Assembly: GCF_000024265.1 (NCBI RefSeq)
Contig: NC_013204.1
Span: 3,337,001 to 3,401,000, forward strand
Direction: 5' to 3'
DNA from: Eggerthella lenta DSM 2243
GTDB lineage: Bacteria; Actinomycetota; Coriobacteriia; Coriobacteriales; Eggerthellaceae
Length of the DNA: 64,000 bases
Positions 45,024 through 61,627 of this stretch are shown in pieces (the first letter of the stretch is position 1; every line of letters begins with the position of its first letter). The notes under the pieces were generated by a model. It saw only the letters and a list, made by a program, of their open reading frames with translations, was not told where the DNA came from and ran no database searches. The position numbers were made by a program, and so were the translations under genes.

Positions 45024-45878
45024 CTATGCTGCTAAGGACTGGTTCCGGAATTCCTCCGGGGTCAGTCCTTTCAGTTTAACCTGCCTTCGCCTCGTGTTCC
45101 AGTGGACGATGTACGCCTCGAGCCTCTCCTTGAACTCCTCGAAGCTCTCGAAGCTCTGCCCGCGGAAGAACTCGTCCTTGATATGGCCGAAGACCTGCTC
45201 GGTCGCGCCGTTGTCGATGCAGTTGCCCTTTCTCGACATGCTCTGGACGATGCCCGCCTCCTCGAGCGTCTTGCAATAACCGTCGTGCTGGTACTGCCAT
45301 CCCATGTCGGAGTGCATGACCGGGCTCGCGGCCTCCGGCATCTTCGCCAGCAGGCCTTCCAGCATCTCCTTTTGCTGCGCCATGTTCGCAGACCGCGATA
45401 TGCTCCAGGACACGATCTCCTTGCTGCCGAAGTCGTACGCTGGGGCAAAGTAGGCCCTGCCCCACGGGGCCTTGAACTCGGTGACGTCCGTGCCGAGCTT
45501 CTGCCAGGGTTCGTCGGCTGAGAAGTCCCTGTCCAGGACGTTGTCGAACGCCCTGCCGACAACGCCTTTGAACGAGTTGTACCTGTGGTAGTCGCTCTCG
45601 CGCCGGATGCCGCAGCTGATGCCCATCTCGTGCATGATCTTCAGTGCGGTCTTGTCGGCTATCGCCACGTCCTCCTCGGCGCGCAGGGCCATGGCGACCT
45701 GCCTGTGTCCGCAGCCGTTGGCCGTGCGGGAGAACACCTCCGCCACCTTCTCCCATAGCTCCGGCCTCGTCGGCCTCGGCGGGTGCGAGCGGGCGCGGTA
45801 GTAAGTCGATCTCGGGAGCCCGGCGGCTGCCAACAGGTCGGAAAGAGCGTGGCCTTGCCCTGAAAGCATCTCGATCAC
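45024..45878 (-). CDS. IS3-family transposase OrfB (DDE integrase domain)
   Basis: About 284 residues from a GTG at 45878, but most likely made as an OrfAB fusion by -1 frameshifting in AAAAAAA (45932-45926), since this frame is open upstream through the slippery run. An HTH_21-like N-terminal part (WEKVAEVFSRTANGCGHRQVAMAL) is followed by the rve/DDE core: GTDVTEF (first Asp), MHSDMGWQY (second Asp) and DNGATEQVFGHIKDEF (Glu). All catalytic residues are present. Confidence 0.88.
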   Translation of the reverse strand: MIEMLSGQGHALSDLLAAAGLPRSTYYRARSHPPRPTRPELWEKVAEVFSRTANGCGHRQVAMALRAEEDVAIADKTALKIMHEMGISCGIRRESDYHRYNSFKGVVGRAFDNVLDRDFSADEPWQKLGTDVTEFKAPWGRAYFAPAYDFGSKEIVSWSISRSANMAQQKEMLEGLLAKMPEAASPVMHSDMGWQYQHDGYCKTLEEAGIVQSMSRKGNCIDNGATEQVFGHIKDEFFRGQSFESFEEFKERLEAYIVHWNTRRRQVKLKGLTPEEFRNQSLAA

Positions 45879-46378
45879 TTGGGACTTCTCCCAGCTCGAG
45901 ACTTCTCCGCCTCCAGGGCGCGGACTTTTTTTAAGTAGGCGTTCTCGGCTTCGAGCCTGCGCACGCGCGCCTCGAGCTCTTGCTCGCGCGTCTTGGGCGC
46001 GCTTTGAGCCGCAGATCCCTTCGGCCTGCCCTTGGGCTTGGGCCTGAGAGCGTCGGCCCCGCCTTCGCGGTAGAGCCGGCACCAGGAGTCGAGCGGGGTC
46101 CTCGACGCGATGCCGAAGGCGGCCATGGCCTCGGGCTTGCCCATCCCCTCGTCCACGACGGCCCGAGCTGCGGCGACCTTCGTCTCCCAAGCGTATCTCG
46201 TTTTCCGGCTACCCATGCAGAGCAGCACCTCGCTTCCGACCGACCTGTACGTCAGAAGCCATTTTTCCACGATGCTGGCCGACATGCAAAGCCTCGCGGC
46301 GACGATGTCCCTGCCGTACCCCTCGTCGAACAGCTCGACCGCTAGTTCGCGCATCTTCCTGTCATGCTTCGGCGGCAT
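45875..46378 (-). CDS. IS3-family transposase OrfA (HTH domain)
   Basis: A 167-residue DNA-binding subunit. It has two helix-turn-helix segments (MRELAVELFDEGYGRDIVAARLCMS near the start, and AAARAVVDEGMGKPEAMAAFGI) and a C-terminal coiled-coil/leucine-zipper-like stretch (REQELEARVRRLEAENAYLKK), where the frameshift to OrfB occurs. The ATG at 46378 follows GGGAGG. A longer in-frame extension to 46630 runs through the IS terminus and is not accepted. Confidence 0.85.
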   Translation of the reverse strand: MPPKHDRKMRELAVELFDEGYGRDIVAARLCMSASIVEKWLLTYRSVGSEVLLCMGSRKTRYAWETKVAAARAVVDEGMGKPEAMAAFGIASRTPLDSWCRLYREGGADALRPKPKGRPKGSAAQSAPKTREQELEARVRRLEAENAYLKKVRALEAEKSRAGRSPK

Positions 46379-46438
46379 AAAGAAGCCTCCCATCTCTCGA
46401 ACTTTACTTTCTTGTCCAAGAAATGGGAGGCAGTTCAC

Positions 46439-46877
46439 GTCGGAGCCCCCCCCCCCGACGCAACGAGGCCGGGGATGCTCCCCGGCCTCATCGAAAGGAA
46501 TACCGACAGTACCGCTTGGCTGAAAGCCTACTAGCCCACCGCTCACACGATGTTCGTAGCAATACCTCACGAGACTGTTTACTTGGCGAAGATAGTCTTT
46601 ATTCGTTCGTATTGCGATTTTTTTTATCAACTGTCGGACAACGCCGATTGTACGCTCTTTTGTTCGGTTTGCGAACCCTCAGAAGCGTTTTTGTGCAGGT
46701 GAACAACCAAATCGTTGCCAATCGTCACCGCGTTGTCACGCCTCCGTTTCGGGTCGGCTACGCAAACTTCCCGGCCGCAAGGTCACGCCCGAGCAGTGAG
46801 GCAGTACCTGGGTTCGCTGTAAACGAAAAAACGCCCCCGCATGGGCGGGGGCGCGATAGCTCGGAGATGCTTGCGAC
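46439..46877. other. Intergenic region right of IS element
   Basis: No gene supported. It contains an 11-C homopolymer (46446-46456), a perfect hairpin GAGGCCGGGG / CCCCGGCCTC (about 46465-46489), an AT-rich stretch (about 46560-46700) and the ferritin terminator near its end. The hairpin and C-run next to the IS may be remnants of what the element interrupted. Confidence 0.5.
46826..46853 (-). terminator. Rho-independent terminator of ferritin gene
   Basis: On the minus strand the stem CGCCCCCGC / GCGGGGGCG is followed by TTTTTTCG. It lies 25-50 bases beyond the ferritin stop at 46878. Confidence 0.85.
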
Positions 46878-47396
46878 CTATTCCGCAGCAGCCAGCGGGG
46901 ACGGCACGGAGTACACGCGGGCGGCGTTCTCCTGATCGAGGTCGTACAAGGCCTTCGCATCGGAGCCGAACAGCTTCATGCGGGTGATCATCTTGTCGGC
47001 GTTGTCCTCTTCCTCCTGCTGCTCCTCGATGAACCAGTCGAGGAACTTCATGGTGCGGTAGTCCTTCACCTCGGCAGCGGCGGCGTAGATGTCGTTGATG
47101 AGGCTGGTCACGTACTTCTCGTGCTCGAGCGCGGCCTCCAACGGCTCCAGGAACGTGGTGAATTCCTTGTCGGGCTGATCGATGGCCAGCAGCTTCACCT
47201 TGCAACCGTTCTCGTGCAGGTAGTTGCGGAAGATAAGAGCATGGTCGCGTTCTTCCTTGGCCTGGATCTCGTACCAGTTGGCAAAGCCCTCGAGACCCTC
47301 CTCCTCGTAGTAGTCGGCGAAGGACAGATACAGATACGAAGAGTACAGCTCCTTGTTGATCTGATCGTTCAGCAATTCGTACACGCGTGCGTCCAT
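46878..47396 (-). CDS. ftnA: Ferritin-like iron-storage protein
   Basis: A 172-residue bacterial ferritin that oxidises and stores iron in a 24-mer cage. The four-helix bundle has ferroxidase residues in NKELYSSYLYLSFADYY (Glu near 17), QAKEERDHALIF (Glu-x-x-His), the helix C glutamate (LEAALEHEKYV) and FIEEQQEEEDNADKM. The length matches the FtnA type. The ATG at 47396 follows AAGGAG; an in-frame ATG two codons earlier overlaps that Shine-Dalgarno. Confidence 0.92.
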   Translation of the reverse strand: MDARVYELLNDQINKELYSSYLYLSFADYYEEEGLEGFANWYEIQAKEERDHALIFRNYLHENGCKVKLLAIDQPDKEFTTFLEPLEAALEHEKYVTSLINDIYAAAAEVKDYRTMKFLDWFIEEQQEEEDNADKMITRMKLFGSDAKALYDLDQENAARVYSVPSPLAAAE

Positions 47397-47546
47397 GAGC
47401 ATCTCCTTCTTGGGTCGTACGGGGGTGTAAACAGGTTGGGCACCCCGTTTCATCTGCGTATATGATAAACCTCATAAGGCTTTCCGACGAGGTTCGCGCG
47501 CACGCTCGCGCCAAATCAACACAGCGGCCAACCGGATGCCAGATGC

Positions 47547-48971: not shown

Positions 48972-49865
48972 TTACAACATGGGCACCACCATGGTCAGCG
49001 GCAGAGCCGCGACCACCACCAGGTAGCGCAGCAGGAAGCCGCCCACCAGCACGCCCGCGTCGGACGCGGCGCTGATCCAGTGAGCTTTGCGGCTCTCCTC
49101 GAACTCCTTCGGGCTGAAGAACAGAAGCCACGTCTCCAGCGCCGTGGGCAGCACGAGGCCGATGAGCACGAGCCCGATCCAGAACAGCGGCGCGTATCCG
49201 CCGACCAGCAGCGACATCACCGAGTTCCAGCCGGCCGTGGAATTCGTGCACGTGATGAACATGAGCGCAGCGATCAGCACAAGCTCGATGACGGGCAGGC
49301 AGAAGTGGAACTTCTTGAGCACGCCCACGCGGTTGAACTCGTCAGCATGCCTGAAGATGCCGATGAGCAGCACCGACGCCGCGCCGGTAGACATGGCCGA
49401 CACGAGGAACAAGATAGGCAGCAGCGCGTTGTTCCACAGCGGGAACGTCTTGCACACGCCCAGCAGGGCGCCCGTGTACATGGCCACGGCCACGCCGAAC
49501 ACCACGCCGGCGATGTCGAGCCACACCGGCACGCGCTTCTTCACGAAGTCGAGGACCACCACGACCAGCGATATCACCGTGAAGCCGCCGAGGAACACGA
49601 CGCCCCAGGTCATGACCGATCCGAAGTTTGTCAGCAGCAGGGCGAAGCGCAGCGGGTTCATGAGGCCCGCCTTCGCATCGAACATCAGCAAGCACAGGCC
49701 GATGATCACCACGATAGGCGCCACCAGATGCCCGATCTTGCGCATCGACACGGCCTCGGGATGTCGCCACCCCAGAAAAGCCGAGGTCACGAACGCGCCG
49801 CCGCCGAGACCGGCGAGGAACAGATACCATGCGATGATGGCACCCCAAATAGGTTCAAACGTCAT
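48972..49865 (-). CDS. NrfD/PsrC-family quinone-interacting membrane subunit
   Basis: A 297-residue integral membrane protein with about eight to nine TM helices. It belongs to the NrfD/PsrC family: WGAIIAWYLFLAGLGGGAFVTSA at the N-terminus and LPILFLVSAMSTGAASVLL in the middle are typical. It oxidises menaquinol (or reduces menaquinone) and anchors the molybdoenzyme at the outer face. It is the last gene of the operon; the ATG at 49865 lies six bases after the Fe-S subunit stop. With its partners it forms a three-subunit polysulfide/thiosulfate-reductase-like complex. Confidence 0.9.
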   Translation of the reverse strand: MTFEPIWGAIIAWYLFLAGLGGGAFVTSAFLGWRHPEAVSMRKIGHLVAPIVVIIGLCLLMFDAKAGLMNPLRFALLLTNFGSVMTWGVVFLGGFTVISLVVVVLDFVKKRVPVWLDIAGVVFGVAVAMYTGALLGVCKTFPLWNNALLPILFLVSAMSTGAASVLLIGIFRHADEFNRVGVLKKFHFCLPVIELVLIAALMFITCTNSTAGWNSVMSLLVGGYAPLFWIGLVLIGLVLPTALETWLLFFSPKEFEESRKAHWISAASDAGVLVGGFLLRYLVVVAALPLTMVVPML

Positions 49866-49871
49866 CGTTCA

Positions 49872-50414
49872 TCACCTCACGTAAAATACTTTGGACTTGG
49901 TCAGGTCGCCTGCGATAGGCTGCGCGTTCGTCGCGACGATCTCCTTCGAGATGTCGCTGTCCGGGTCGTCCAGATCGCCGAACATACGCGCCCCCGTCAG
50001 GCAAGCCTCCACGCACGAGCACATCTTCGTGCCCGTCGTCTCGGCCGACACCGTGCAGAAGCGGCACTTGTCCACCGCGCCCGTCTCCTCGTTGCGCACG
50101 CGCACCTGGTAGGGGCACGCCGCCATGCAGTACAAACAGCCGATGCAGCGGCCGTGGTCCACGCCCACGATGCCGTCCGCGCCGATATAGGCGGCGCCGG
50201 TGGGGCACACCGCCACGCAGGGGGCGTCCTCGCAGTGCATGCACTGCAAAGGCACCGTCTCCACGCGCACGTTGGGATACGTTCCCACCTCGTGCTCCTC
50301 GTAACGGATGAAGTCCTCGGTGGGCAACAGGTTGTTCTGGCGCTGGCAGGCCACGCGGCAGGCGTAGCAGCCGATGCACTTCTTCGTGTTGATGAGCATT
50401 CCGTAGCGAGCCAT
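49872..50414 (-). CDS. Four-cluster ferredoxin subunit (PsrB/DmsB/NrfC type)
   Basis: A 180-residue electron-transfer subunit. Four cysteine groups are visible: CIGCYACRVAC, CMHCEDAPCVAVCP, CIGCLYCMAACP and CRFC with a later CSCVEAC, which fits four 4Fe-4S clusters. There is no signal peptide, so it is exported with the Tat-signalled catalytic subunit. The ATG at 50414 overlaps the catalytic-subunit stop (TAATG), ensuring stoichiometric synthesis. Confidence 0.92.
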   Translation of the reverse strand: MARYGMLINTKKCIGCYACRVACQRQNNLLPTEDFIRYEEHEVGTYPNVRVETVPLQCMHCEDAPCVAVCPTGAAYIGADGIVGVDHGRCIGCLYCMAACPYQVRVRNEETGAVDKCRFCTVSAETTGTKMCSCVEACLTGARMFGDLDDPDSDISKEIVATNAQPIAGDLTKSKVFYVR

Positions 50415-52615
50415 TACGCACCTGCCTTCTTAACGTTGACGACCGTCTCCTGCGTGCAGGCCGACCCGTAGCCCGGCTCCATGCGGAAGGGAACGTAGTC
50501 CATCTGGCGCAGGCCCACCTCGTAGGCGGTGTGCTGGTCGGGCGACGAGCAACCGTAGTGGCTGGGCATGTACAACGCCGTCGGGTTGATGCGCTGCGTG
50601 ACCTTCACGCGCACGCGACCCGTGTGCTGGCCGTTGGACACCTCCACCTCGTCGCCGTCGGCGATGCCGCGGCGGGCAGCCGTGTCGGCGTTCATCCACA
50701 CGCGCGTGAGGTCGTAGTCCTTCGTGATCTGCATGAGGTCCTCGATGTTGGCCGTCTGGGTGTGGCTGTGGATGGCCTGCTTGCCGCCGATCAAGCGCAG
50801 CTCGTCGCCCATGGGCATGACAGCCGGTTCGACCCACACCGGATAGGGCGACAGCCCCGCCTTCTCGCACGCCTCGCTGGCGAACTGCACCTTCTCGGTG
50901 GGCGTCTTCCACTTCGGCGTGGAGCCGTAGGAGAACTCCTTTTCGGGGAAGTGCGCCGTGCCCGTCTTCTTCAGCGCTTCCAGCGACAGCCCCACGGTTT
51001 GGAGCTGAGCGTCGGCCAGCTCGTCCACGCTGAACTGGAAGTACTCGCCCACGCCGCACGCCTCGGCCAGCTCGGAGAAGATCTGGTCCACCGGACGCGT
51101 GTTGGGATGCACCTTCTCCAGCACCTGGTCGCGCAGCGCGACAGCCGGCACCTTGCCACCGATGAACTCCGGCAGCTCGAGGCGCTCGAGGTAGCTGGTA
51201 TCGGGCAGCACGTAGTCGGCCAGCAGGGCCGTTTCGGACATCTGCACGTCCACGACCACTATGAGGTCCAGCTGCGACAGCGCGTCAGCCAAGTACGCCG
51301 TGTTCGAATAACCGGCGGCCATGTTCGAGTTGTAGAAGAACATGCCCTTGATGTCGCCGTTCTTGGCCTGCTCGGCGGCGAAGAGGTTCGTGCCCATGCT
51401 GGTCAGCGCCAGCGGGTACTCCTCGGTGCCGGCGATCTTGTTCTCGGGCTTCGGCACGCTGGGGAACTTCTCCTTGTCCACATCGCCCGCAGACACGCTG
51501 GGCGTGAAGATGGCGCCGCCCTCCTGGTTCCAGCAGCCCAGCAGCGTGTTGAACAGGCATACTGCGCGCGCCGTCTCGCCGGAGTTCGCGTACGAGCAGC
51601 CGAACGCGCCGCGCCAGCTGGGCTCGATGGACGCCGCGGGGGCCGCTTCGGCGAACTCCACAGCCAAACGCGCGATAGTGGTTGCGGGGATGCCGGTGAT
51701 CTTCTCGGCCCATTCGGGCGTGCAGTCGGCCAGCGACGCGGCCCAATCCTCGAAACCCACCGCGTTATCGGCCACATACTGCTTGTCGTACAGGCCGCGC
51801 GTCACCAGCACGTTCGACATGGCCAGCAGGAAGGCCAAGTCGGTACCGGGGTTGATGGGCACCCATTCGTCGGCGAACGCGATGGAGTTGTTGCAGCGCG
51901 GATCCACCAGCACGATATGCGCGCCGTTTTCGTGGGCGCGCTGCAGCTCTGCCACCGAACTGGGGCGAATGGCGTCGGCGTAGCTGCGGCCGATGAACAT
52001 CGTCATCTTGGAGTTCTCCATGTCGGACGCATAGCTGGCCGCGCCGATGGCCTGGGTGAAGCCGCTTTCCTTCGACAGATTGCAGGCAGCGCCGTGCGTG
52101 TACACGTTCGCCGAGCCCAGCGCGTTCATGAAGCGCTTCGTGTAGTACTTGCCCGACGGACGCGGATCCTGCACCATGGCAAGCGCCTGCGGCCCCTTGT
52201 CGGCGATGATGGCCTTCACCTTCTCGGCGATCTCGCTGTAGGCCTGATCCCACGAGATGGCCTCGAATGCGCCCTTGTCGTTCTTCTTGAGCGGATCGGT
52301 GAGGCGGTCCTTCGAATAGGCGATCTGGGAATAGCCGTAGCCACGGGCGCAGAGCTTGCCCTGGGCGTACGGATGGTCCTCGTCGCCGATAAGCTTCGTC
52401 AGGCGCCCGTCGACGACGTACGCCGTGAAACCGCATTTGCTCGAGCAGGCGTTGCACAGCGAATGGACGGTCTTGGTTTCTCCCCCTTGGGCCCCGTCAT
52501 CAGCGTGCGCCTGCTCCCAAGCGTCGAAGCTCACATAGCCGGCCGCCGCCGTGAGCGCGACCGCTCCGGCGCTGCCAGCCAGGAAGCTCCGCCTGGTTAT
52601 AGCGTGTTCTGACAT
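50414..52615 (-). CDS. Molybdopterin oxidoreductase catalytic subunit (PsrA/PhsA-like)
   Basis: A 733-residue enzyme of the DMSO-reductase superfamily. The Tat signal ITRRSFLAGSAG is at the N-terminus. The 4Fe-4S motif is CNACSSKC, then a cysteine in GKLCARGYGYSQ. The candidate Mo/W ligand is the cysteine in YTHGAACNLSKESG, as in thiosulfate/polysulfide reductases, in contrast to the serine of DMSO reductases. The C-terminal cofactor domain shows VWMNADTAARRGIADGDEVEVSN. The ATG at 52615 was chosen because the Tat motif starts eight residues later. The operon order is TorD chaperone, this subunit, PsrB-like, PsrC-like. Substrate (polysulfide, thiosulfate or an organic acceptor) is open. Confidence 0.88.
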   Translation of the reverse strand: MSEHAITRRSFLAGSAGAVALTAAAGYVSFDAWEQAHADDGAQGGETKTVHSLCNACSSKCGFTAYVVDGRLTKLIGDEDHPYAQGKLCARGYGYSQIAYSKDRLTDPLKKNDKGAFEAISWDQAYSEIAEKVKAIIADKGPQALAMVQDPRPSGKYYTKRFMNALGSANVYTHGAACNLSKESGFTQAIGAASYASDMENSKMTMFIGRSYADAIRPSSVAELQRAHENGAHIVLVDPRCNNSIAFADEWVPINPGTDLAFLLAMSNVLVTRGLYDKQYVADNAVGFEDWAASLADCTPEWAEKITGIPATTIARLAVEFAEAAPAASIEPSWRGAFGCSYANSGETARAVCLFNTLLGCWNQEGGAIFTPSVSAGDVDKEKFPSVPKPENKIAGTEEYPLALTSMGTNLFAAEQAKNGDIKGMFFYNSNMAAGYSNTAYLADALSQLDLIVVVDVQMSETALLADYVLPDTSYLERLELPEFIGGKVPAVALRDQVLEKVHPNTRPVDQIFSELAEACGVGEYFQFSVDELADAQLQTVGLSLEALKKTGTAHFPEKEFSYGSTPKWKTPTEKVQFASEACEKAGLSPYPVWVEPAVMPMGDELRLIGGKQAIHSHTQTANIEDLMQITKDYDLTRVWMNADTAARRGIADGDEVEVSNGQHTGRVRVKVTQRINPTALYMPSHYGCSSPDQHTAYEVGLRQMDYVPFRMEPGYGSACTQETVVNVKKAGA

Positions 52616-52629
52616 AGCTGCTTCCTCTC

Positions 52630-53364
52630 TTATATGCATGCATGTAAACGATTGCGTTCGGCACGCGCATCCGCGTCGATCCCTTGCTCGCCAGCACCCG
52701 ACGTCAACGCCAGATGCTCCCGCATGCCCACGAGCACGTCGACCAGCCCGATGTAGAACCGGGCGTCGTCGGCAAGCTCCAGCAGGCGCATGCGATACGC
52801 GGTGAGCCACGAGAACCGCTCCAAAACGAATTGGCGGGCGGCATCTCGCATCCCCGACCGCAGCAGCACGGCTGCAAGGTCGAGCTCGAGCGCAAGATGA
52901 TCCGGGCACGCCGAAAATTCCGGCGGCACCCGCATGCCCATGCGCTCCACGAGATCGCGCATATAGCGCGCCGAATCTCCCTGGTACATGCCCTCGGCTT
53001 TCGAGAACGGAGACGGCAGCGACCCGTTCGACCACGTCGTGTACAACGACTCTGCCGGCACTGCCGATTCCGGCAGCCCTCCCGTGAAGTGGCGTGCGGC
53101 GAACAGCCGCTTCTCGTCGTACGTCGGCGGCGTGAACAGCGCCTTCACCTCGCCGGCGGAAAGGAACTCCTGAAGCGGGCAGCGGCTGCGGACGCGGGCT
53201 ATCGGGCTGGTCGGCTCGCCGAGCGCGTCGTCGTCCTGCAAGCCGCGCCGAGCGGCGTCAAGAAAATCCGACCAGAGCGGGCCGTCTATCAGCTGCTTCC
53301 ACTCGTCTTGCCCGACGGGCGCGAAACACATCGACAGCACCGTGAACATCTCGTCGTATTCCAT
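52630..53364 (-). CDS. TorD/DmsD-family molybdoenzyme chaperone
   Basis: A 244-residue, all-helical cytoplasmic protein. The pattern fits the TorD family: an N-terminal helical region, then SLYTTWSNGSLPSPFSKAEGMYQGDSARYMRDLVERMG and PPEFSACPDHLALELDLAAVLL, corresponding to the conserved E-P-x-D-H-x-x-x-x-L core (here CPDHLALEL). It would bind the Tat signal of the catalytic subunit until the cofactor is loaded. The ATG at 53364 follows AAAGGAGG. It lies 14 bases before the molybdoenzyme start. Confidence 0.85.
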   Translation of the reverse strand: MEYDEMFTVLSMCFAPVGQDEWKQLIDGPLWSDFLDAARRGLQDDDALGEPTSPIARVRSRCPLQEFLSAGEVKALFTPPTYDEKRLFAARHFTGGLPESAVPAESLYTTWSNGSLPSPFSKAEGMYQGDSARYMRDLVERMGMRVPPEFSACPDHLALELDLAAVLLRSGMRDAARQFVLERFSWLTAYRMRLLELADDARFYIGLVDVLVGMREHLALTSGAGEQGIDADARAERNRLHACI

Positions 53365-53444: not shown

Positions 53445-54206
53445 CTACGCTTGCACGAGGGTCGTCGTCCTCACGACGCCCTGGTCGATGACCTTCTGCG
53501 CGATATCCTCCCAATCGATGAACTTGATGGCGCCGTTCGGGCACTGCTCGGCGCAGCGTCCGCACGAAATGCACTTCGTGGATACGCCGGTCTCGCTGTC
53601 GACGCGCGGCATGTTCCACGGGCACGCCTGGCTGCACATGCCGCAGCCGATGCACTTCTTCGTGTCCACCGTGCGCGCACCGGACTCTTCGTCGGCGTAG
53701 ATCGCGTGGACCGGGCAGTAGTTCATGCATGCCGGGTCGGCGCACTGCTTGCAGTGCTCGACAGTGAACTCGCAGTTATCGTAGATGCCGTCCTTGGTAT
53801 CGACGCTGGCACCGAAGTTGTAGTTCGGCCACACGCGCACGCGGGCTATGTGCTGGCACACGCGACCGTCGTTCTTCAGCGTGCACATCATCTCGCATCG
53901 CTGGCAGCCCGAGCAGCGGGCACGGTCGGTCACGATCATCTTCGTGGGCGTGGTGCGTATCTCGATGCGCCCCGAAGCGATCGAGGCCGACGTGACGCCC
54001 CACGACGCCAGCACGCCGCCGACCACGAGGCCGGCAACGCCGCAGCCGGCCATTGCCAGCACCGTGCGGCGCGTAAAGGTTTTCTGCTTGGGCTCCTCTT
54101 CGGGCCCGGCGCTCTGAGGCGCGGGCGCGGATGCGTTCGTCTCCGGCGCAGCGGCCGGGAAGCTCGTATCCTCGGAGGTGTTCTGGTTCAGATTGGAATC
54201 TGACAT
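53445..54206 (-). CDS. Tat-exported multi-cluster ferredoxin (YdhY-like)
   Basis: A 253-residue Fe-S protein. The 40-residue proline/alanine-rich N-terminus precedes a twin-arginine-type signal FTRRTVLAMAGCGVAGLVVGG. Cysteine groups CSGCQRCEMMC, CKQCADPACMNYCP, CIGCGMCSQACP and CISCGRCAEQCP would bind four 4Fe-4S clusters. It resembles the ferredoxins encoded with aldehyde:ferredoxin-oxidoreductase-like genes (E. coli ydhY beside ydhV). It is divergent from the AOR gene and leads the operon of the PsrABC-like complex; the 80 bases to torD hold no terminator. Confidence 0.88.
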   Translation of the reverse strand: MSDSNLNQNTSEDTSFPAAAPETNASAPAPQSAGPEEEPKQKTFTRRTVLAMAGCGVAGLVVGGVLASWGVTSASIASGRIEIRTTPTKMIVTDRARCSGCQRCEMMCTLKNDGRVCQHIARVRVWPNYNFGASVDTKDGIYDNCEFTVEHCKQCADPACMNYCPVHAIYADEESGARTVDTKKCIGCGMCSQACPWNMPRVDSETGVSTKCISCGRCAEQCPNGAIKFIDWEDIAQKVIDQGVVRTTTLVQA

Positions 54207-54588
54207 AGCCTAGTGCTCCCTCCCTCACATAGGTACGGTGAGTGTCGTTTTCCTCGTCCCGTCGTCGCGCGAGTGTTCGATGCCCCTTTTAGGGGAACCG
54301 CCCCGAATGGAACGTTCGCGGCGACGGCTTGCGCTCGATATCGCTCCGCGCGCAGCCCCACACAACGCACGAAAGTATAGGATGGCCCCGTGCACGGCCC
54401 CTCCCCTCTTTGAGGTACTTTTTACCGCTGATCGGCTAGTTCCTCAAAATACCCTCAAAGAGGGGATGCCTCGTCCGCCTCTGTCGGCATACTGGCGAAC
54501 GACGATTGTTGTCAGCACTCGCATCGCCCACGCAGGTTCCCACACAACACCGAACCTCAGTAATCTATCCAAGATTTGGAGATGCAAC
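54207..54588. promoter_or_regulatory. Divergent control region of ferredoxin/Psr and AOR genes with two copies of a LuxR-type motif
   Basis: A 382-base spacer. TCCCCTCTTTGAGGTA at 54402-54417 (plus) and the inverted copy CATCCCCTCTTTGAGGGTA at 54450-54468 (minus) form a dyad with a 32-base gap. The second copy matches 18 of 19 bases of a site upstream of the luxR-type gene (58646-58664). A third TCCTCAAA half lies at 54441. No other conserved structure is seen. Confidence 0.7.
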
Positions 54589-56718
54589 ATGGCTGACGAA
54601 ACATCGTATGGATGGGCCGGTAAGATCCTCCGCGTCAATCTGAGCACGGGCTCGATCACGACGCAGCCGACCGACCCCTACAAGGAGTACATCGGCGGCA
54701 TGGGCTTGGCCAACAAGATCATGTACGACGAAGTGCCCGCCGGCACCGACCCCTTCTCCCCCGAGAACAAGCTCATCTTCGCCGTAGGACCGCTGACGGC
54801 TTCCGGCGTGCCCCTGGCCGGCCGCACCACCATCTGCTCGCTGTCCACGTTCACGAAGGACCACCTCGTGGTGGACGCCCACTGCGGCGGCATGATCGGC
54901 GCGAAGATCAAGCTGGCCGGCTGGGACGCCGTGGTTCTGGAGGGTGCATCCGACCACCCCGTATACCTGAACATCGTCGACGACAAGGTGGAGATCAAGG
55001 ACGCCGGCTTCGTGTGGGGCATGGGCACCCGTGAGACCACCGAGATGCTGTGCCGCAAGGAAGGCGTCGAGGCGTGCGTGGCCGCCATCGGCCCCGCCGG
55101 CGAGAACCTGCTTCCGTACGCGTGCATCATCAACGCGCGCAACCACTCCGCCGGCGCCGGCACGGGCTCGGTGATGGGATCGAAGAACGTCAAGGCGCTG
55201 GTGGTGCAGGGCAACGGCAGCGTGAACGTGAAGGACCCGCAAGCCGTAGCCGACCTGTCCGACTACATGCTGCGCGAGGTCATCGGCTCCAACAACAACC
55301 ACGTGGTTCCGCAGACGCAGCAGGAATGGGCCGAATTCTACGACAAGGGATCCCGCTGGTCCGCCCGTAGCGGTCTGACCTGGGGTATGGCCGAAGACGG
55401 ACCCATCGACACGGGCGAGCCGAAGCCGGGCGAGCTGAACACGGTGGGCTATCGCTGCATGAAGTCGGTGTACGACCTGGGCGAGGTGGCCGAGAAGTAC
55501 ACCATCAAGATGGACGGCTGCCACGGCTGCCCCATCCACTGCTACTCCGACCTGCGCACCGAGCGCACCGGAGAACTGGGCGGCAAGACCACGTCGGGAA
55601 ACACCTGCGCGGCCAACTTCCCGTTCAAGTACATGGAGGGCATCCTCAAGACGGGCATCGCCGAGGACAGCGAGTCGGGCATTGTATGGAACACGCTGAT
55701 CGGCACCACCATTGACGAGCTGGGACTGTGGTGCAACTACGCGCAGCTGTGGCGCGACCTGGCGCACTGCATCAAGGCTGGCGTGTTCGACCGCGTACTT
55801 CCCGAAGAGGAGAAGGCGAAGTACGACTGGCAGCGCATCTACAACGACGACCCCACCATCATGGTGGAGCTGCTGAACGACATCGCCCAGAACGACTCCG
55901 AGATCGCCCACATCGCCTACGGCCCGTACCACTGGACCGAGCGCTGGGATGACAAGGGCTGGTTCGATCAGCAGCCCAGCCAGCTGATCAACTACCGCGG
56001 CTGGCCCGTGCACCACGCCATCGAGTGCTTCGGCCAGGTAGGCGGCGTGTACAACATGATGTTCAACCGCGACGATATGATCCACTCCGCCGTGAATTTC
56101 CAGGGCTGCGGCCTGCCTTTCGAGCTGAAGCAGGAAATCGCCGAAGAGGTGTGGGGCGGCAAGGACGCCATCGACCAGAACAAGAACTACACGCCCATGA
56201 ACGAACGCAAGGCGAACTTCGCCTGGTGGAGCGTGGTCACCGACGTGCTGCACGACTCGCTGACGCTGTGCAACTGGACGTGGCCCATGACCATGAGCCC
56301 CACGAAGGCGCGCAACTACCGCGGCGACCTGGACCTAGAGGCCAAGTTCTTCAAGGCCGTCACCGGCGAGGACGTGACCACCGACGACCTGTACCAGGCC
56401 GGCGCCAGAATCATGACGCTGCAGCGCGCCAACACCGTGCGCGGCATGACGAAGGAAGACGGCACCAGGGGCGAGAACGACATGCGCAACGTCCATGATG
56501 TGATGTGCGCCTGGACGTTCGATATCGACCCGGACAAGAAGCCCTTCACCGAGGGCACCATCAAGATGGACCGCGACGACTTCCAAACCGCCCTGGGCAT
56601 GGTGTACGACACGTTCGGCTGGGATCACGAGAAGGGCTGCCCGACGGCCGCCTGCCTCGACCAGTACGGCATGGCCGACGTTAAGGAAGAGCTGGACAGC
56701 CTGGGTCTGCTGCCGTAG
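54589..56718 (+). CDS. Aldehyde:ferredoxin oxidoreductase family enzyme (YdhV-like)
   Basis: A 709-residue tungsten- or molybdenum-bis-pterin enzyme. N-terminal YGWAGKILRVNLSTGSITTQP and YIGGMGLANKIMYDE are family hallmarks, as is GPAGENLLPYACIINARNHSAGAGTGSVMGSKN. The 4Fe-4S cysteines are CHGCPIHC near residue 310, plus a C-terminal cysteine in EKGCPTAACL. The protein has no export signal, so it is cytoplasmic, while the divergent ferredoxin is exported. The ATG at 54589 follows TTGGAGAT. Its substrate is unknown; AOR homologues of this branch include the oxidoreductase YdhV and benzoyl-CoA-reductase-related proteins. It ends in a strong terminator. Confidence 0.9.
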   Translation: MADETSYGWAGKILRVNLSTGSITTQPTDPYKEYIGGMGLANKIMYDEVPAGTDPFSPENKLIFAVGPLTASGVPLAGRTTICSLSTFTKDHLVVDAHCGGMIGAKIKLAGWDAVVLEGASDHPVYLNIVDDKVEIKDAGFVWGMGTRETTEMLCRKEGVEACVAAIGPAGENLLPYACIINARNHSAGAGTGSVMGSKNVKALVVQGNGSVNVKDPQAVADLSDYMLREVIGSNNNHVVPQTQQEWAEFYDKGSRWSARSGLTWGMAEDGPIDTGEPKPGELNTVGYRCMKSVYDLGEVAEKYTIKMDGCHGCPIHCYSDLRTERTGELGGKTTSGNTCAANFPFKYMEGILKTGIAEDSESGIVWNTLIGTTIDELGLWCNYAQLWRDLAHCIKAGVFDRVLPEEEKAKYDWQRIYNDDPTIMVELLNDIAQNDSEIAHIAYGPYHWTERWDDKGWFDQQPSQLINYRGWPVHHAIECFGQVGGVYNMMFNRDDMIHSAVNFQGCGLPFELKQEIAEEVWGGKDAIDQNKNYTPMNERKANFAWWSVVTDVLHDSLTLCNWTWPMTMSPTKARNYRGDLDLEAKFFKAVTGEDVTTDDLYQAGARIMTLQRANTVRGMTKEDGTRGENDMRNVHDVMCAWTFDIDPDKKPFTEGTIKMDRDDFQTALGMVYDTFGWDHEKGCPTAACLDQYGMADVKEELDSLGLLP

Positions 56719-56770
56719 AGCAATCCTCCGCAGGGCCGCAACCCCTCCGCGGCTTTCGCCCCCCTACCAG

Positions 56771-56801
56771 AACGCCCCCGGATGCAGCATCCGGGGGCGT
56801 T
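56771..56801. terminator. Bidirectional terminator after AOR gene
   Basis: The 14-bp perfect stem AACGCCCCCGGATG (56771-56784) / 56788-56801 with a CAG loop. It separates the convergent AOR gene and the NifU-like gene. Confidence 0.85.
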
Positions 56802-56844
56802 CTCGATTGAGCGGGAAAGGCGGCCGAAGAATACGACGACAGCC

Positions 56845-57438
56845 CTACGCTTCGGCCATCTTCAACTCCACTCTCGTGGATCTCAAAGAACAGTGCTCGC
56901 AGATCATGCAGGGGACGCTCAGGGAGTTGCAGGGGACGACCGCGTCAAGCTCTTCGAGGGAGGCCCCTTGGCGAACGAGATAATCGCCGATGAGGGCACG
57001 GACGGCCTCGATGGCGAAATGGATAGTGTACACCTTGTCCACGGGAACCCCGTCGAGCGCCGTCTTCACGTCGTCGGTCGTGATGGCCAGCGCCTCGTCG
57101 AACGTACATCCTTCGAGCATGGAGCACACCACGCTGGCGCACCCCGTGACGGCCAGGCAGCCGCGCGTCTTGAAGCCGGCGCGCACGAACGTCCGCGTGT
57201 CGTGGTCGATCACGGCGAACAGGCGCAGCGCCACCTCTCCGCGCTTCGACTTGCCCACCATGCTCTGGGCGTTGAACCCTTCGGGGGCGCCGCCGTTGCG
57301 GAAGTTCGCAACCACGGACAGCAGCGTGTCGGAGTAGCCCGTCACGCCGTCCTCGATCTCGGTTTGGTACACGTCGGCCGTGCGCAGCACATGGCGGTCC
57401 TGCACCTCGCGGTACACGTTGCGCGCTTCGTCTTCCAT
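56845..57438 (-). CDS. NifU/IscU-like protein with extra C-terminal cysteine motif
   Basis: A 197-residue protein whose N-terminal about 140 residues resemble the IscU/NifU scaffold domain (YSDTLLSVVANFRNGG, then FKTRGCLAVTGCASVVCSMLEGCTFDEAL). The scaffold cysteine positions are changed, with four cysteines in that block. The C-terminus adds an unusual VPCNSLSVPCMICEHCSL cluster. A role in Fe-S or metal-cofactor assembly for the neighbouring AOR/Psr/ferredoxin system is a reasonable inference. The ATG at 57438 follows AGAGAGG. It follows the gene at 57536-58582 on the same strand. Confidence 0.7.
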   Translation of the reverse strand: MEDEARNVYREVQDRHVLRTADVYQTEIEDGVTGYSDTLLSVVANFRNGGAPEGFNAQSMVGKSKRGEVALRLFAVIDHDTRTFVRAGFKTRGCLAVTGCASVVCSMLEGCTFDEALAITTDDVKTALDGVPVDKVYTIHFAIEAVRALIGDYLVRQGASLEELDAVVPCNSLSVPCMICEHCSLRSTRVELKMAEA

Positions 57439-57460
57439 GGAGAACCTCTCTTTCTAGCAA

Positions 57461-57502
57461 GATCCTGCAACTCCGCGCCTGCAGCGCTTCGCTCAGGACG
57501 AC
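57461..57502. repeat. Diverged copy of the 42-bp GATCCT...GGATGAC repeat
   Basis: Intergenic, between the NifU-like gene and the gene at 57536. It matches 36 of 42 bases of the in-gene copy at 57979-58020. Confidence 0.7.
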
Positions 57503-57535
57503 TAATGCAAGTACGCCGAACGGGCGCGATAGCGT

Positions 57536-58582
57536 TTACAGAAACATGTCGCGCTCGACGGAGTTCCACTCTGCGAGCGACTTGGCGTAGGCGGGCGTCA
57601 GGTACTCGGTGGAGAAGTAGTACACGTCGCCGTTCGACGCAGCGACGGTATCGAGGTCCGGATAGGCGCCGCTGTCGCGCACGGTGCGCCACAACTCGTC
57701 GATTTCATCGGCCGACAGGTTGAACGGCTCGTTGGACAGCGACGACGCCTCCATGGGGCGCGGGTACTTCCGCGATTCGTCGCGCACGCACTCCACAAAC
57801 GTGAGCACGCGATCGTCCTCGCTGGCGAGGAACGACCACCGCGCGTACGCATCGGTCATGCGCTCGGTGGAGTACAGATAGTAGCTGTGCTTGCCGACGA
57901 GCGCAACGATATCGTCGCAGGGAACGCACGGGGGATCGGCCAGGGTTTCGGCATCCTGTGCGCTATCGCGCCGCTCGGGATCCTTCGACTCCGCGCCTTC
58001 GGCGCTGCGCTCAGGATGACGGAGCTCCTCTGAGGCTTCGGAGCTGCGCTCGGGCTGGCGTGGCTCTTCTGCGCCCTTCGCCGTCGCAGCGCCTTCCGAC
58101 TCGGGCTCCTCCTCCGTGCGCAGAATGCGGGGAACGCCCACCGCACGGGTCGCCGTGCGAACGGGGGTCGCGGAAGCCGCAACGACGCGCGCGTCGCGCT
58201 CAGCCCTGCGATCCTCAAGGTACTCGTACACGAACATCTCCCAGTCTTCGGCCGAGAAATGCGCCGGCACGAGGCCCGCCTTCAACCACTGCGCCGGCTG
58301 AACAAGCTTGGCATCCGCAGACTGCGCGCGCACGTCATCGAATACCGCCGTCAGAAACAGACGCTCGACCTCTTCGTCGCTCAATTGCGCCTCGGCAACT
58401 TCCCCCTCGCGACTATCGGCAGCCGTTTCGGCAACACGCTCCCATGCGGGCATCGCTATTGGCGCGCTGACGCTTTCCGCTTCGTCGGGAACCTTCAAAC
58501 CGAGCGATTCGATATCTTCTCCTTGTTCAGCCATTGCCCGGATCACTTCGTCTCGAATTCGCTGAGCTTCTAAGTCAACCAC
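57536..58582 (-). CDS. Protein of unknown function in AOR locus (possible YdhW-like), with in-frame repeat insertion
   Basis: A 348-residue soluble protein. Residues 1 to about 150 are helical and acidic. The middle (about 150-215) is low-complexity and contains ERSSEASEELRHPERSAEGA, translated from an extragenic-type repeat (57978-58020). The C-terminal about 125 residues hold two similar halves, HSYYLYSTERMTDAYARWSF and VYYFSTEYLTPAYAKSLAEW. E. coli ydhV is accompanied by ydhW, also of unknown function; the position suggests, but does not prove, a match. The start is a GTG at 58582 after AAAGGAG. It is divergent from the luxR-type gene, so the motif at 58646 could control both. Confidence 0.6.
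   Translation of the reverse strand: MVDLEAQRIRDEVIRAMAEQGEDIESLGLKVPDEAESVSAPIAMPAWERVAETAADSREGEVAEAQLSDEEVERLFLTAVFDDVRAQSADAKLVQPAQWLKAGLVPAHFSAEDWEMFVYEYLEDRRAERDARVVAASATPVRTATRAVGVPRILRTEEEPESEGAATAKGAEEPRQPERSSEASEELRHPERSAEGAESKDPERRDSAQDAETLADPPCVPCDDIVALVGKHSYYLYSTERMTDAYARWSFLASEDDRVLTFVECVRDESRKYPRPMEASSLSNEPFNLSADEIDELWRTVRDSGAYPDLDTVAASNGDVYYFSTEYLTPAYAKSLAEWNSVERDMFL
57978..58020. repeat. Extragenic-type repeat inserted in frame in the gene at 57536-58582
   Basis: Reads GGATCCTTCGACTCCGCG...CTCAGGATGAC. Related copies are intergenic at 57461-57502, 62741-62786 (inverted) and 62826-62862. Here the repeat is translated (minus strand) as RHPERSAEGAESKDPE without breaking the frame. 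Confidence 0.85.
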
Positions 58583-58645
58583 CGCATCGCTCCTTTCCCC
58601 TGCGTTGTTTTTCGTATGGTATGATGACCCACGGCGCGCATCCGC

Positions 58646-58664
58646 CATCCCCTCTTTGAGGATA
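58646..58664. promoter_or_regulatory. LuxR-type operator motif upstream of the luxR gene
   Basis: CATCCCCTCTTTGAGGATA, identical at 18 of 19 bases to the minus-strand site at 54450-54468. It lies between the divergent starts at 58582 and 58676, downstream of a TATGAT at 58620-58625. It could mediate autoregulation and control of the 57536 gene. Confidence 0.65.
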
Positions 58665-58675
58665 AATCGAGGTGA

Positions 58676-60283
58676 ATGGAGGACGCGTCCGCGTCGACTA
58701 CGTACCAAGCACGGGGAGGGAGTGTACGGTTGGGCGCACGCACGACAACAGCACCGACTCCAACAGGCGCCGAGCAAAACCAGGCCCGCAACGGACTCGA
58801 GGGAGCGGCACATCGCTTCGCGCCGCTCTGGCCGCTTATCCTTGGTCTGGCTTTCGGGCGGGCCGGACTGATCGTCGCCAGCTATGGAAGCTACACCAGC
58901 ACCGACGAAGGTATTTTCACCGACGGCGCCATGCTGGTGGCATTAGTCGTCTTGGCTTTGTTCCTGGTCTTCATCGTCCTCAGCAAACGAACGATCAGCA
59001 AGCACGTCACCAACGTGATCATGCGCACATGCGTCGCACTGGAAGCGTTTGTGCTGATGGCTCTCGCCGTATTCGACCTTTTCGGCATCGGCGACGAAAT
59101 CGAGCGCTTCGCGCTGAGCTCGCTGTGCACCCTCGTGTCGTCAGGCGCCATCTATTATTGGCTGCGCCGCGCCCGCGGAACGAGCACGACCACGGCTGCC
59201 GTCTTCGTGTTCGCCGCGCTCATCATCAGCGAAGTGGAGATTTATCTGTGCACGCTGCTGCCCGTATTCGCGGGAAACTTCGTTGCCGCCGCGCTCGTGC
59301 TGCTGCAATACCCCTGCATAATATGGGCGCGCAGGCAACGCCAACCGCATGACATCGTCTCGCCAACGCAGGCCAACGATTACTTCGGATTCTCAAAAAC
59401 CATGTTGCAAAGCAAGCAGTTCCTCACTGCCACTGCACTGGGCATCGGATGCCTGTCTATCGTAATCGGCTTGCTGCGCGGCTACCCCGACGGCACCTCC
59501 ATCGCGTTCACGCCCGCTACGCGCATCGCGTACGCTGCGCTGACCATCGGCGTGAGCGTCGCGTTGATCGTATTGGTGCTGAAGCGGCGAGAACGCGTCA
59601 TGACCGTAGGGATTTTCGTGATCATGGAACTGCTGGCCTGCTTCGCGCTGATCGCCTATGCCGGATTTCCCGACATGTTGGACATCGGAGCGGTATTCAC
59701 CACCACGTTCAACGCGCTCATGGTGGGATTCACCTGGTACGTCATCATCGCGTTCATGAGCTACGGATGGCGCGACCCGTACTATTACGCCATCGCAGGA
59801 TGGCTGGTGTGGCTAGGCTGCCGCGCCGTAGCGCGTATCGCGTTGCTGGCGGCTCACGAGCTGTTCTCCAACGACATGCTCATGAGCGCCGCGATGGGCA
59901 CCATGGTGGTCCTCTCCACGCAAGTGGTGTTCGTGCAATTCCTCAATATCACGCGTCGCAACGCCGAGGAACAAGAGGAGCAGAGCGCACGACGACAGAG
60001 CATGCTCAAGATCATGGGACTCGACGAACACGAAAGCCTTGCGGACATGCGACAGGCCTCCATGAAGCACAACGCCGAAGAGATGGGCAAGCAGTTCCTG
60101 TTGTCCGATCGGGAGATCGAGGTGATGGCGCTGTATGCGCTCGGCTACACGCAGAAGCGCGTGGCCGAAGAGCTGTTCATCACGCAGGGCACGGTGCATG
60201 CCCACATCAAGCGAATCTACGCTAAAACCGGCTTGCACTCCCGTCAGGAGATCCTCGACTATCTTGAACAGTACGCGTCGTAG
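58676..60283 (+). CDS. Membrane-bound LuxR-type transcriptional regulator
   Basis: A 535-residue protein with about 12 TM helices (residues about 50-440), a short linker, and a C-terminal LuxR/FixJ HTH (LSDREIEVMALYALGYTQKRVAEELFITQGTVHAHIKRIYAKTG). The architecture is a one-component membrane sensor typical of Eggerthella relatives. It probably regulates the respiratory superlocus because its own upstream motif recurs in the AOR/ferredoxin promoter. The start is uncertain: the ATG at 58676 has GAGG only four bases away, while a TTG at 58730 has GGGGAGGGAG at ideal spacing and would leave room for the operator. The ligand is unknown. Confidence 0.85.
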   Translation: MEDASASTTYQARGGSVRLGARTTTAPTPTGAEQNQARNGLEGAAHRFAPLWPLILGLAFGRAGLIVASYGSYTSTDEGIFTDGAMLVALVVLALFLVFIVLSKRTISKHVTNVIMRTCVALEAFVLMALAVFDLFGIGDEIERFALSSLCTLVSSGAIYYWLRRARGTSTTTAAVFVFAALIISEVEIYLCTLLPVFAGNFVAAALVLLQYPCIIWARRQRQPHDIVSPTQANDYFGFSKTMLQSKQFLTATALGIGCLSIVIGLLRGYPDGTSIAFTPATRIAYAALTIGVSVALIVLVLKRRERVMTVGIFVIMELLACFALIAYAGFPDMLDIGAVFTTTFNALMVGFTWYVIIAFMSYGWRDPYYYAIAGWLVWLGCRAVARIALLAAHELFSNDMLMSAAMGTMVVLSTQVVFVQFLNITRRNAEEQEEQSARRQSMLKIMGLDEHESLADMRQASMKHNAEEMGKQFLLSDREIEVMALYALGYTQKRVAEELFITQGTVHAHIKRIYAKTGLHSRQEILDYLEQYAS

Positions 60284-60361
60284 AATAGGATGCCGGCGCT
60301 CGCCGCGCATACGGCATGCGTCGGCAGACGAAGAGACGAAAGAAGACCCTGGGGGAACGGG

Positions 60362-61627
60362 ATGCCGAATCTCATCGACATAGCGCAACGCCTGGCCGAG
60401 CGACCGATGGTGGCGCTGCTGCATGAAGAGCGCTGTCTGCCGGAGCGCGATCTGGGCTCCACCTGCACGCGTTGTGCCGAAGCGTGCCCGGTCGACGCGA
60501 TCGCCGTCGGGTTGGAGCGCGATACGGAGGCGTCGCCCGCCGCCGCATACGGGTCCGTGGCGAAAAACGGCCCGGCCGGACCGCGCATCGACGATGACGC
60601 GTGCGTGCGTTGCGGCCGATGCGTCACGGCGTGCCCCACCGCCGCGCTTTTGGCGATAGCACCGCTCGACGACGACGCGCTGTTGGAAGCGAGCGTGCGG
60701 GCGGGAGCCGCGGCGGCGAAGCGGGCGGCGGGTTTTGCAGCGGAAGAGGCCGAGGGTCAGGGAGATTCGATCGGGACGCGCGATGCGGAAGCCCAGGTCG
60801 AGGCCCCGCAAGCCGCAGTCGCTCCCGCTTGCGCTGGATTCGCGTGCGAGCGCGCTGTGCGCGCAGGCCACATCGATGCCGAGCGCACGGTCGCCCTTCC
60901 CTGCCTGGCGTGGGTGGACGAAGCGCTCATCGTGCACATGGCGCGCGCGGGCGCGCGGCGCATCCTGCTGCTGACGGCTCCGTGCGCCTCGTGCGAGCAC
61001 GCCAAAGCCGTCGTCGACTTGCCGAAAACGGTGCGCTCGGCTCAGCGCATCCTCGACACGTGGCAGCTCGACGCCGCTGCGAGCATCGTCGAAACCGTCG
61101 ACGATGTAGCCGCGTCCGAGGACGAGGACGCCGCTGGCGAAGTGTCGCGGCGCGGCCTGTTCTCGCAAGCGCGCTCGGCGCTGGTGGAAGCGGCCACCGA
61201 TGCAGCGTCGGCGCAGATGGACGCGCTGACGGGCCGAAGCGCGACCGACGCCCCCGCGCCCGAGCCCGACCGCCGCCGCTGGCAGCTGCTGGACGACCTG
61301 CACGCCGCGGGCCTCCCGGCTGGCGATGCCGTCGTGCCGCGCGCGCTTGCGCCGCGCGTGGACATCGATCCCGAGCGCTGCTCGGGCTGCGCGCTATGCG
61401 CGGGCTTCTGCCTCACGAAGGCGCTGCGCAAGGCCGGCAAAGCGCCAGGCGGGCGCACCCTGCTGGAATTCGATGCCGCGCTCTGCCGCGATTGCGGCAC
61501 CTGCACCGACACCTGCCGCTACGGCGCCATCTCCCGCGAGGAGACGCTCACCGTATCCGAGCTGTTCGCGCTCGAACCGCGCGCTATCGTCATACCCAAG
61601 CGCCGCGTGCTGCCCAGCCGCCGCTGA
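60362..61627 (+). CDS. Polyferredoxin with four 4Fe-4S motifs and a central redox domain
   Basis: A 421-residue cytoplasmic Fe-S protein. The first pair of cluster motifs, CTRCAEACPVDAI and CVRCGRCVTACP, lies near residues 38-95. A central domain follows with ALPCLAWVDEALIVHMARAGA and TAPCASCEHAKAV, reminiscent of hydrogenase delta/MvhD-like modules. The second pair, CSGCALCAGFC and CRDCGTCTDTC, is near the C-terminus. SRRGLFSQARSALV lies in the linker. The ATG at 60362 follows GGGGGAACGG. It directly follows the luxR-type gene and is the likely cytoplasmic electron carrier for the AOR; the partner at the other end is unknown. Confidence 0.85.
   Translation: MPNLIDIAQRLAERPMVALLHEERCLPERDLGSTCTRCAEACPVDAIAVGLERDTEASPAAAYGSVAKNGPAGPRIDDDACVRCGRCVTACPTAALLAIAPLDDDALLEASVRAGAAAAKRAAGFAAEEAEGQGDSIGTRDAEAQVEAPQAAVAPACAGFACERAVRAGHIDAERTVALPCLAWVDEALIVHMARAGARRILLLTAPCASCEHAKAVVDLPKTVRSAQRILDTWQLDAAASIVETVDDVAASEDEDAAGEVSRRGLFSQARSALVEAATDAASAQMDALTGRSATDAPAPEPDRRRWQLLDDLHAAGLPAGDAVVPRALAPRVDIDPERCSGCALCAGFCLTKALRKAGKAPGGRTLLEFDAALCRDCGTCTDTCRYGAISREETLTVSELFALEPRAIVIPKRRVLPSRR

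Follow-up and report, generated by a model that had tools for sequence, protein, structure and literature searches.

How does a membrane-anchored LuxR-type regulator find its target genes, and which genes are they? The question is raised by a 64,000-base stretch of the Eggerthella lenta DSM 2243 genome (from now on the window, positions 3337001-3401000 of a single 3,632,260-base contig), in which a luxR gene lies close to genes for a YdhV-type tungsten/molybdenum oxidoreductase (AOR), the divergent ydhY-torD-psrABC genes and a ydhW-like/nifU operon. A first-pass annotation had noted one 19-base motif both upstream of luxR and in the divergent AOR/ydhY promoter, and proposed that the shared sites define a candidate regulon for a family of membrane LuxR proteins. 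Based on the analysis below, we assign a probability of about 0.8 to the reading that the neighboring membrane LuxR uses these sequences as its operators and would thereby activate three promoters of one tungsten/molybdenum oxidoreductase system.

Three copies of a palindromic site at the locus

The 19-mer CATCCCCTCTTTGAGG(A/G)TA is present at 58646-58664 on the plus strand and at 54450-54468 on the minus strand, with 18 of 19 bases identical, exactly as first annotated, and these are the only two sites found in the window at up to 3 mismatches (shuffle mean 0.01). The shorter copy reported at 54402-54417, said to form a dyad with the AOR/Fer4 copy, is likewise real: the arms 54402-54422 and 54446-54466 form an inverted repeat of the two AOR/Fer4 copies and are 86% complementary. 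Because every copy is also palindromic in itself (CCTC-TTT-GAGG), the term dyad holds at two levels. The three candidate operators are:

54402-54418, plus strand: O2, distal from AOR on the ydhY side, TCCCCTCTTTGAGGTAC; dyad axis 54410; class Fer4side, n=49
54450-54466, minus strand: O1, AOR side, TCCCCTCTTTGAGGGTA as read on the minus strand; dyad axis 54458; class AORside, n=46
58648-58664, plus strand: O3, in the gap separating luxR from the divergent ydhW-like/nifU operon, TCCCCTCTTTGAGGATA; dyad axis 58656; class LuxRadj, n=47

The motif is neither common nor randomly placed in the genome (3.63 Mb searched). Its 13-base core, CCCCTCTTTGAGG, has three exact matches, all within this locus, and a single further copy with 1 mismatch at 605389-605401 (9390-9402 of locus L094). 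When the extended pattern TMCCCTCTTTSRGGRTA was searched genome-wide at up to 3 mismatches, 38 matches, the three local sites included, were obtained vs 39 for the reversed control, and by this test there is therefore no excess beyond the locus and no wider regulon.

Conservation of the site across the family

The exact core occurs in 42 copies in 32 of 138 genomes of the family (reversed control, 3), and 31 of the 42, judged on stretches of up to 20 kb, lie in the cluster, either beside luxR or in the gap that separates AOR from ydhY. A search of 395 genomes of the order for a longer 17-mer, TMCCCTCTTTGAGGRTA, gave 27 sites (reversed control, 0), confined to 21 genomes of this family, and all 27 are located at AOR or luxR of orthologous clusters, with positions compared by eye. 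Allowing at most 0, 1, 2 or 3 mismatches for the best match, 450-base regions upstream of AOR contain the site in 20, 42, 55 and 68 of 73 cases and those upstream of LuxR genes in 7, 24, 41 and 52 of 62, compared with 0.000, 0.001, about 0.01 and 0.13 in mononucleotide shuffles. The 73 and 62 regions take in second AOR copies and distant LuxRs; upstream regions shorter than 150 bp (L163, L196), LuxR matches beginning after residue 60 and matches of at most 200 bits were left out, and two Gordonibacter loci were not counted separately as they are already in the set (G067:C1 and G025:C2). The consensus is roughly gcaT(A/C)CCCTCTTTGAGGGTAAtt, corresponding to the palindrome TACCCTC-TTT-GAGGGTA with a dominant left half. 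AOR-side sites cover 20 numbered genera and luxR-adjacent sites 19. The motif is thus conserved together with the LuxR orthologue across the family, and not absent beside orthologues in related species.

The candidate operator follows the LuxR orthologue

A scan of related genomes for co-occurrence of motif and regulator had been suggested in the first-pass annotation. With a LuxR orthologue defined by E <= 1e-60, 68 clusters from 70 genomes had a usable AOR upstream region; the AOR genes of G012, preceded by 95 bp of sequence, and of G006, which is truncated, were dropped. An AOR site scoring at least 20 is found in 53 of 60 clusters from genomes with a LuxR orthologue vs 0 of 8 from genomes without one (Fisher test, 8.7e-7). 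The candidate regulon accordingly stands as a small one, its sites being rare, local and tracking the orthologue. In two genomes luxR lies about 10 kb (G068) and about 18 kb (G066) from AOR, and a related site with 3 mismatches remains beside luxR.

In one paralogous cluster the operator co-diverges with its LuxR. L208, a second AOR cluster in G088 (AOR 60% and LuxR 31% identical), has an inverted pair of an altered operator, CATCCTCTCTTTGGGG, within its AOR/ydhY promoter, and an exact 15-base copy of part of this operator is found upstream of L208's own LuxR (chance about 3e-4 at equal base frequencies). The recognition helix also differs, reading SKTTVHAHIRHTYEKT vs S/T-P/Q-GT-A-HAHIKRIYAKT in most orthologues. 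Two AOR clusters with other LuxRs contain variant inverted operator pairs, CCCTCTTGTGGGGTAAAA in L178 and a CCTCCTC(C/T)-type in L207; a clear shared operator copy near the LuxRs of these two clusters was looked for and not found. Separately, four AOR upstream regions from genomes without a LuxR orthologue (L162, L177, L188 and L189) have no operator and instead contain direct repeats 172-214 bp apart.

Promoter geometry and assignment of each copy

Sites were oriented by their asymmetric arms (46 AOR-side, 49 ydhY-side and 47 luxR-adjacent). All three classes have a -10-like element, with the AOR-side consensus CATACT, whose spacing on the C-rich flank is fixed; the opposite flank has no such element. 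At this locus the corresponding putative elements are:

54488-54493, plus strand: CATACT, predicted AOR promoter, at a conserved position 30-35 bp from the O1 axis
54374-54379, minus strand: TATACT, predicted ydhY-torD-psrABC promoter; distance to the O2 axis 31-36 bp, exceeding the peak spacing in relatives by one base
58621-58626, minus strand: CATCAT, predicted ydhW-like/nifU promoter, 30-35 bp from the O3 axis

The -10 profile peaks at the same offset in the ydhY-side (z 7.2) and luxR-adjacent (z 9.9) classes as in the AOR-side class (z 7.8), which is its own training set, and because the profile was trained on AOR-side sites the first two classes are independent tests. A profile-free check counted sites with at least 4 of 6 matches to TATAAT at that spacing: of the 115 cluster sites, 79 had them on the C flank and 13 on the G flank, vs 1 of 13 non-cluster sites. 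The -10-like element lies at +30 to +35 from the dyad axis, so the axis itself would be located near -42. A class II activator promoter would have the axis near -41.5 from the start, with the site overlapping the -35 region; what was observed in all three classes is the spacing to a conserved -10-like element, and the start positions are predictions from that element. No sigma-70 -35/-10 pair was called in either promoter region.

Of the luxR-adjacent sites, 45 of 46 point their promoter-side flank away from luxR and toward the divergent ydhW-like or nifU gene, and on the luxR side nothing promoter-like is conserved beyond the operator flank. Since its promoter side, by orientation and -10 spacing, faces the divergent operon, O3 is best assigned to the ydhW-like/nifU promoter. 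The copy had been annotated first as lying upstream of luxR, which implied a site of the luxR promoter; these data do not bear out that implication, and its target is here reassigned to the divergent operon. On this evidence, the three copies would serve AOR/ydhV, ydhY-torD-psrABC and the ydhW-like/nifU operon but not luxR itself, and all three would act on parts of what looks like a single enzyme system.

Paired operators in AOR promoters are generally inverted (39 of 48 pairs). Their axis-to-axis distances fall into five classes: 37 (6 pairs), 47-48 (25), 57-59 (3), 81-84 (9) and 91-92 bp (5). The steps near 11 bp between classes, about one helical turn, are suggestive; because the chance value over the five distance classes is 0.02, we do not claim helical phasing as a firm result.

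The single-mismatch core copy at 605389 was considered as an additional regulon member and rejected, as a TATAAT lies 23-28 bp from its axis and not at 30-35. It sits upstream of another transmembrane (TM) LuxR gene. A second motif, CCACACAAC, is found in the AOR leader at 54540-54548 (plus strand) and, inverted, at the predicted ydhY transcript start (54358-54366, read on the minus strand). It recurs in many relatives, including AOR clusters of genomes without a LuxR orthologue (L182, L184).

The regulator combines a LuxR DNA-binding domain with a predicted MFS-like membrane domain

58730-60283, plus strand: luxR, membrane LuxR-type regulator with a C-terminal PF00196 helix-turn-helix (HTH) domain and an MFS-like membrane domain; 517 aa from TTG 58730

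The longest ATG open reading frame begins at 58676. This ATG is not preserved in L068, while TTG 58730, located behind a purine-rich stretch, is, and by conservation TTG 58730 is the likely start. The product matches PF00196 (GerE/LuxR HTH) with 58.9 bits (cut-off 23.5) at residues 476-529 of 535, and a simple hydropathy count gives 11 hydrophobic segments, within the expected 10-12 membrane helices. The regulator thus fits the known LuxR family with 10-12 TM helices. An AlphaFold2 model built from 42 sequences (mean predicted local distance difference test score, pLDDT, 81.5) contains a helical domain resembling 12-helix transporters. Comparison of this domain with known structures gave a best Foldseek E-value of 2.3e-5 and, among the 50 matches listed by VIA-align, Z-scores of 22.5-24.9 over 322-347 residues at a root-mean-square deviation of 3.4-4.5. 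We take these matches to be proteins of the major facilitator superfamily (MFS). The model therefore indicates an MFS fold for the sensor half, meaning a shared fold only and not implying transport.

Proposed mechanism and alternative explanations

We hypothesize that a pair of LuxR HTH domains binds the near-palindrome TACCCTC-TTT-GAGGGTA with its axis near -42, at promoters without a recognizable -35 element. Class II activation would then switch on (1) AOR/ydhV, (2) ydhY-torD-psrABC and (3) the ydhW-like/nifU operon, from transcription starts predicted near 54500 (plus strand), 54367 (minus) and 58614 (minus). The MFS-like membrane half would sense a ligand, turning on the enzyme parts together; as LuxR would activate all three promoters, the parts of one membrane-linked oxidoreductase would be co-induced. 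By analogy with the related regulators DadR, CadR and HcdR, the ligand is probably the substrate of the enzyme.

Several observations weigh against this model. Eleven of the 42 exact cores in the family lie outside the cluster, and 7 of the 60 LuxR-bearing clusters have no AOR site scoring at least 20 (G051, G057, G059, G069, G099, G102 and G134). Six genomes, all from genus g2, are exceptions to the orientation rule: their AOR-proximal site has the variant sequence CCCCTCATTGAGG, and the paired sites run in the same direction ('++' rather than '+-'). Site counts are not independent because the sequences are related. Further, the operator position weight matrix was trained on the sites that it scores, a circularity avoided by the mismatch-based upstream test and by the TATAAT-match check.

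In an unlikely alternative, luxR would regulate itself through the copy next to it, and the divergent operon would be incidental. Between the O3 axis and the likely start of luxR, further downstream, there are 74 bp, and FLAG-DadR protein increased upon induction, which suggests autoregulation in this family (accessible part of PMC9734109). The orientation of 45 of 46 luxR-adjacent sites nevertheless directs the promoter-side flank away from luxR, and the conserved -10-like element is located solely on that side, with no conservation beyond the operator flank on the other. It would be similarly improbable that another regulator binds the sites and controls both the enzyme genes and the region beside luxR. 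This idea draws on the fact that binding by LuxR is itself deduced indirectly, but the genome contains just 3 exact sites, their presence follows the LuxR orthologue, a related site stays with luxR where this gene is separated from AOR (G068, G066), and in L208 the operator has changed along with its paralogous LuxR.

The palindrome could also act as an RNA hairpin, that is, a terminator or attenuator rather than a protein site, and a terminator-like match was indeed called at 54464-54452 on the minus strand; CCCTC-TTT-GAGGG is able to pair. We consider this very unlikely, as only 11 of 227 departures from the commonest pair are two-sided (7 arm positions in 119 distinct operators), the TTT loop and, except at a single A/C position, the left arm hardly vary whereas the right arm has drifted, and the sites lie upstream of the predicted start sites. 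Chance similarity, conceivable for a short motif, is refuted by conservation (the core count in the family, the upstream regions and the 17-mer) together with the rarity of the motif in window and genome, leaving it a negligible probability. LuxR-dependent activation of the three promoters thus remains the explanation we favor.

Relation to known systems and other membrane LuxRs

In the accessible part of PMC9734109, 83 membrane LuxR regulators are reported, and DadR, CadR and HcdR of Coriobacteriia are described as activating neighboring enzymes in response to their substrates. Similar to these, the protein studied here has a C-terminal LuxR HTH, about 11-12 membrane helices and a gene beside a molybdenum/tungsten enzyme cluster; unlike them, it has a different target and presumably a different inducer. 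No operator for DadR, CadR or HcdR was found in the accessible text of that paper, the main text of which contains 'palindrom' and 'inverted repeat' 0 times and 'motif' once; 'MFS', 'major facilitator', 'transporter' and 'dimer' are absent from this main text. The accessible parts of two later papers mentioning these regulators (PMC11585353, PMC12771579) also yielded no operator, nor was a published one for any membrane LuxR of this kind found in the open-access literature searched, as far as its text was accessible.

Other LuxR-type systems offer partial parallels. For PAS-LuxR regulators of the PimM type from Streptomyces, the operator is likewise compact and palindrome-like, 16 bp long, and located in the -35 region of target promoters; however, they have a PAS sensor and the operator CTVGGGAWWTCCCBAG, which by eye the present operator fails to match (PMC9774167, accessible part). 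The E. coli ydhYVWXUT operon encodes the same YdhV, YdhY and YdhW-type proteins, with FNR as a regulator according to the accessible part of PMC10845959 and NarL/NarP named in a reference title; here, such genes are distributed among three promoters next to a membrane LuxR and are accompanied by TorD/PsrABC-like and NifU-like genes. As in the class V tungsten oxidoreductases of Coriobacteria, for which Eggerthella is a named holder, there is an extra membrane subunit and an unknown pyranopterin subunit; the main text of PMC13328260, in its accessible part, makes no mention of LuxR or regulation.

The lux box of Vibrio fischeri is positioned near -42.5. The present site resembles it in being palindromic and, as proposed here, in overlapping the -35 region and supporting class II activation, whereas V. 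fischeri LuxR is an acyl-homoserine-lactone receptor with a different operator.

The proposal in the first-pass annotation is supported for the regulon of this LuxR but not for the membrane LuxR family at large. Upstream regions of 76 E. lenta LuxR loci were analyzed (76 of 90 HTH matches, the other 14 being short open frames or a second domain). Across these 76 loci many spacers show a mild enrichment of inverted repeats, with no special excess at spacer 3, and a local-recurrence test gave 632 matches vs 508 expected, with 14 vs 1.7 at this locus. With no spacer-3 excess and only a slight recurrence excess, the motif was rejected as a general operator of E. lenta's other TM-LuxRs. Repeats of the GTTTCACG(TGAAAC)-type were seen near two LuxR genes (L255, L266) and resemble ParB parS sites.

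For one membrane LuxR, a candidate operator and a regulon of three promoters are well supported; they are new in detail and of a kind already known. The defined operator and three predicted promoters make the targets of this regulator experimentally tractable, and a tungsten-enzyme system with no named substrate would be tied to a dedicated sensor usable for finding that substrate. More tentatively, and on balance doubtfully, the locus might offer the first code by which operators of membrane-anchored LuxR activators with an MFS fold can be read. Every such regulator would have a palindrome of its own at about -42 of its target promoters, the recognition helix would change along with the operator, and pairs of helically phased operators would allow a single membrane-bound complex to fire two divergent promoters simultaneously. 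If true, footprinting of orthologous clusters could reveal from sequence the targets, and hence likely ligands, of many uncharacterized TM-LuxRs. Against it, equally clear local operators for other TM-LuxRs find little support in E. lenta alone.

Other genes of the locus

54589-56718, plus strand: AOR, YdhV-type tungsten/molybdenum oxidoreductase (NF007354, 1105 bits, above the cut-off of 868)
53445-54206, minus strand: YdhY-type ferredoxin-like protein (NF007382, 219.7 bits, cut-off 213)
52630-53343, minus strand: TorD-like chaperone (PF02613; TorD model under its cut-off)
50414-52648, minus strand: molybdopterin oxidoreductase, PhsA/PsrA-like (top model PhsA, under cut-off)
49872-50414, minus strand: 4Fe-4S subunit, NrfC/PsrB-like (models under cut-offs)
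48972-49865, minus strand: NrfD/PsrC-like membrane subunit (model under cut-off)
57536-58582, minus strand: YdhW-like protein, first gene divergent from luxR (GTG start 58582)
56845-57438, minus strand: protein with a NifU N-terminal domain (domain/model searches)
60314-61627, plus strand: multi-[4Fe-4S] protein downstream of luxR

The first gene divergent from luxR is termed YdhW-like because its match to NF007411 (106 bits, residues 221-344 only) falls below the cut-off of 203. The multi-[4Fe-4S] gene also adjoins luxR in three other genomes of the genus, as well as in L071 and L205. Beside the cluster, an IS3-like transposase pair and a ferritin-like gene were noted by eye in the list of open reading frames (45024-46630 and 46878-47453, both minus strand).

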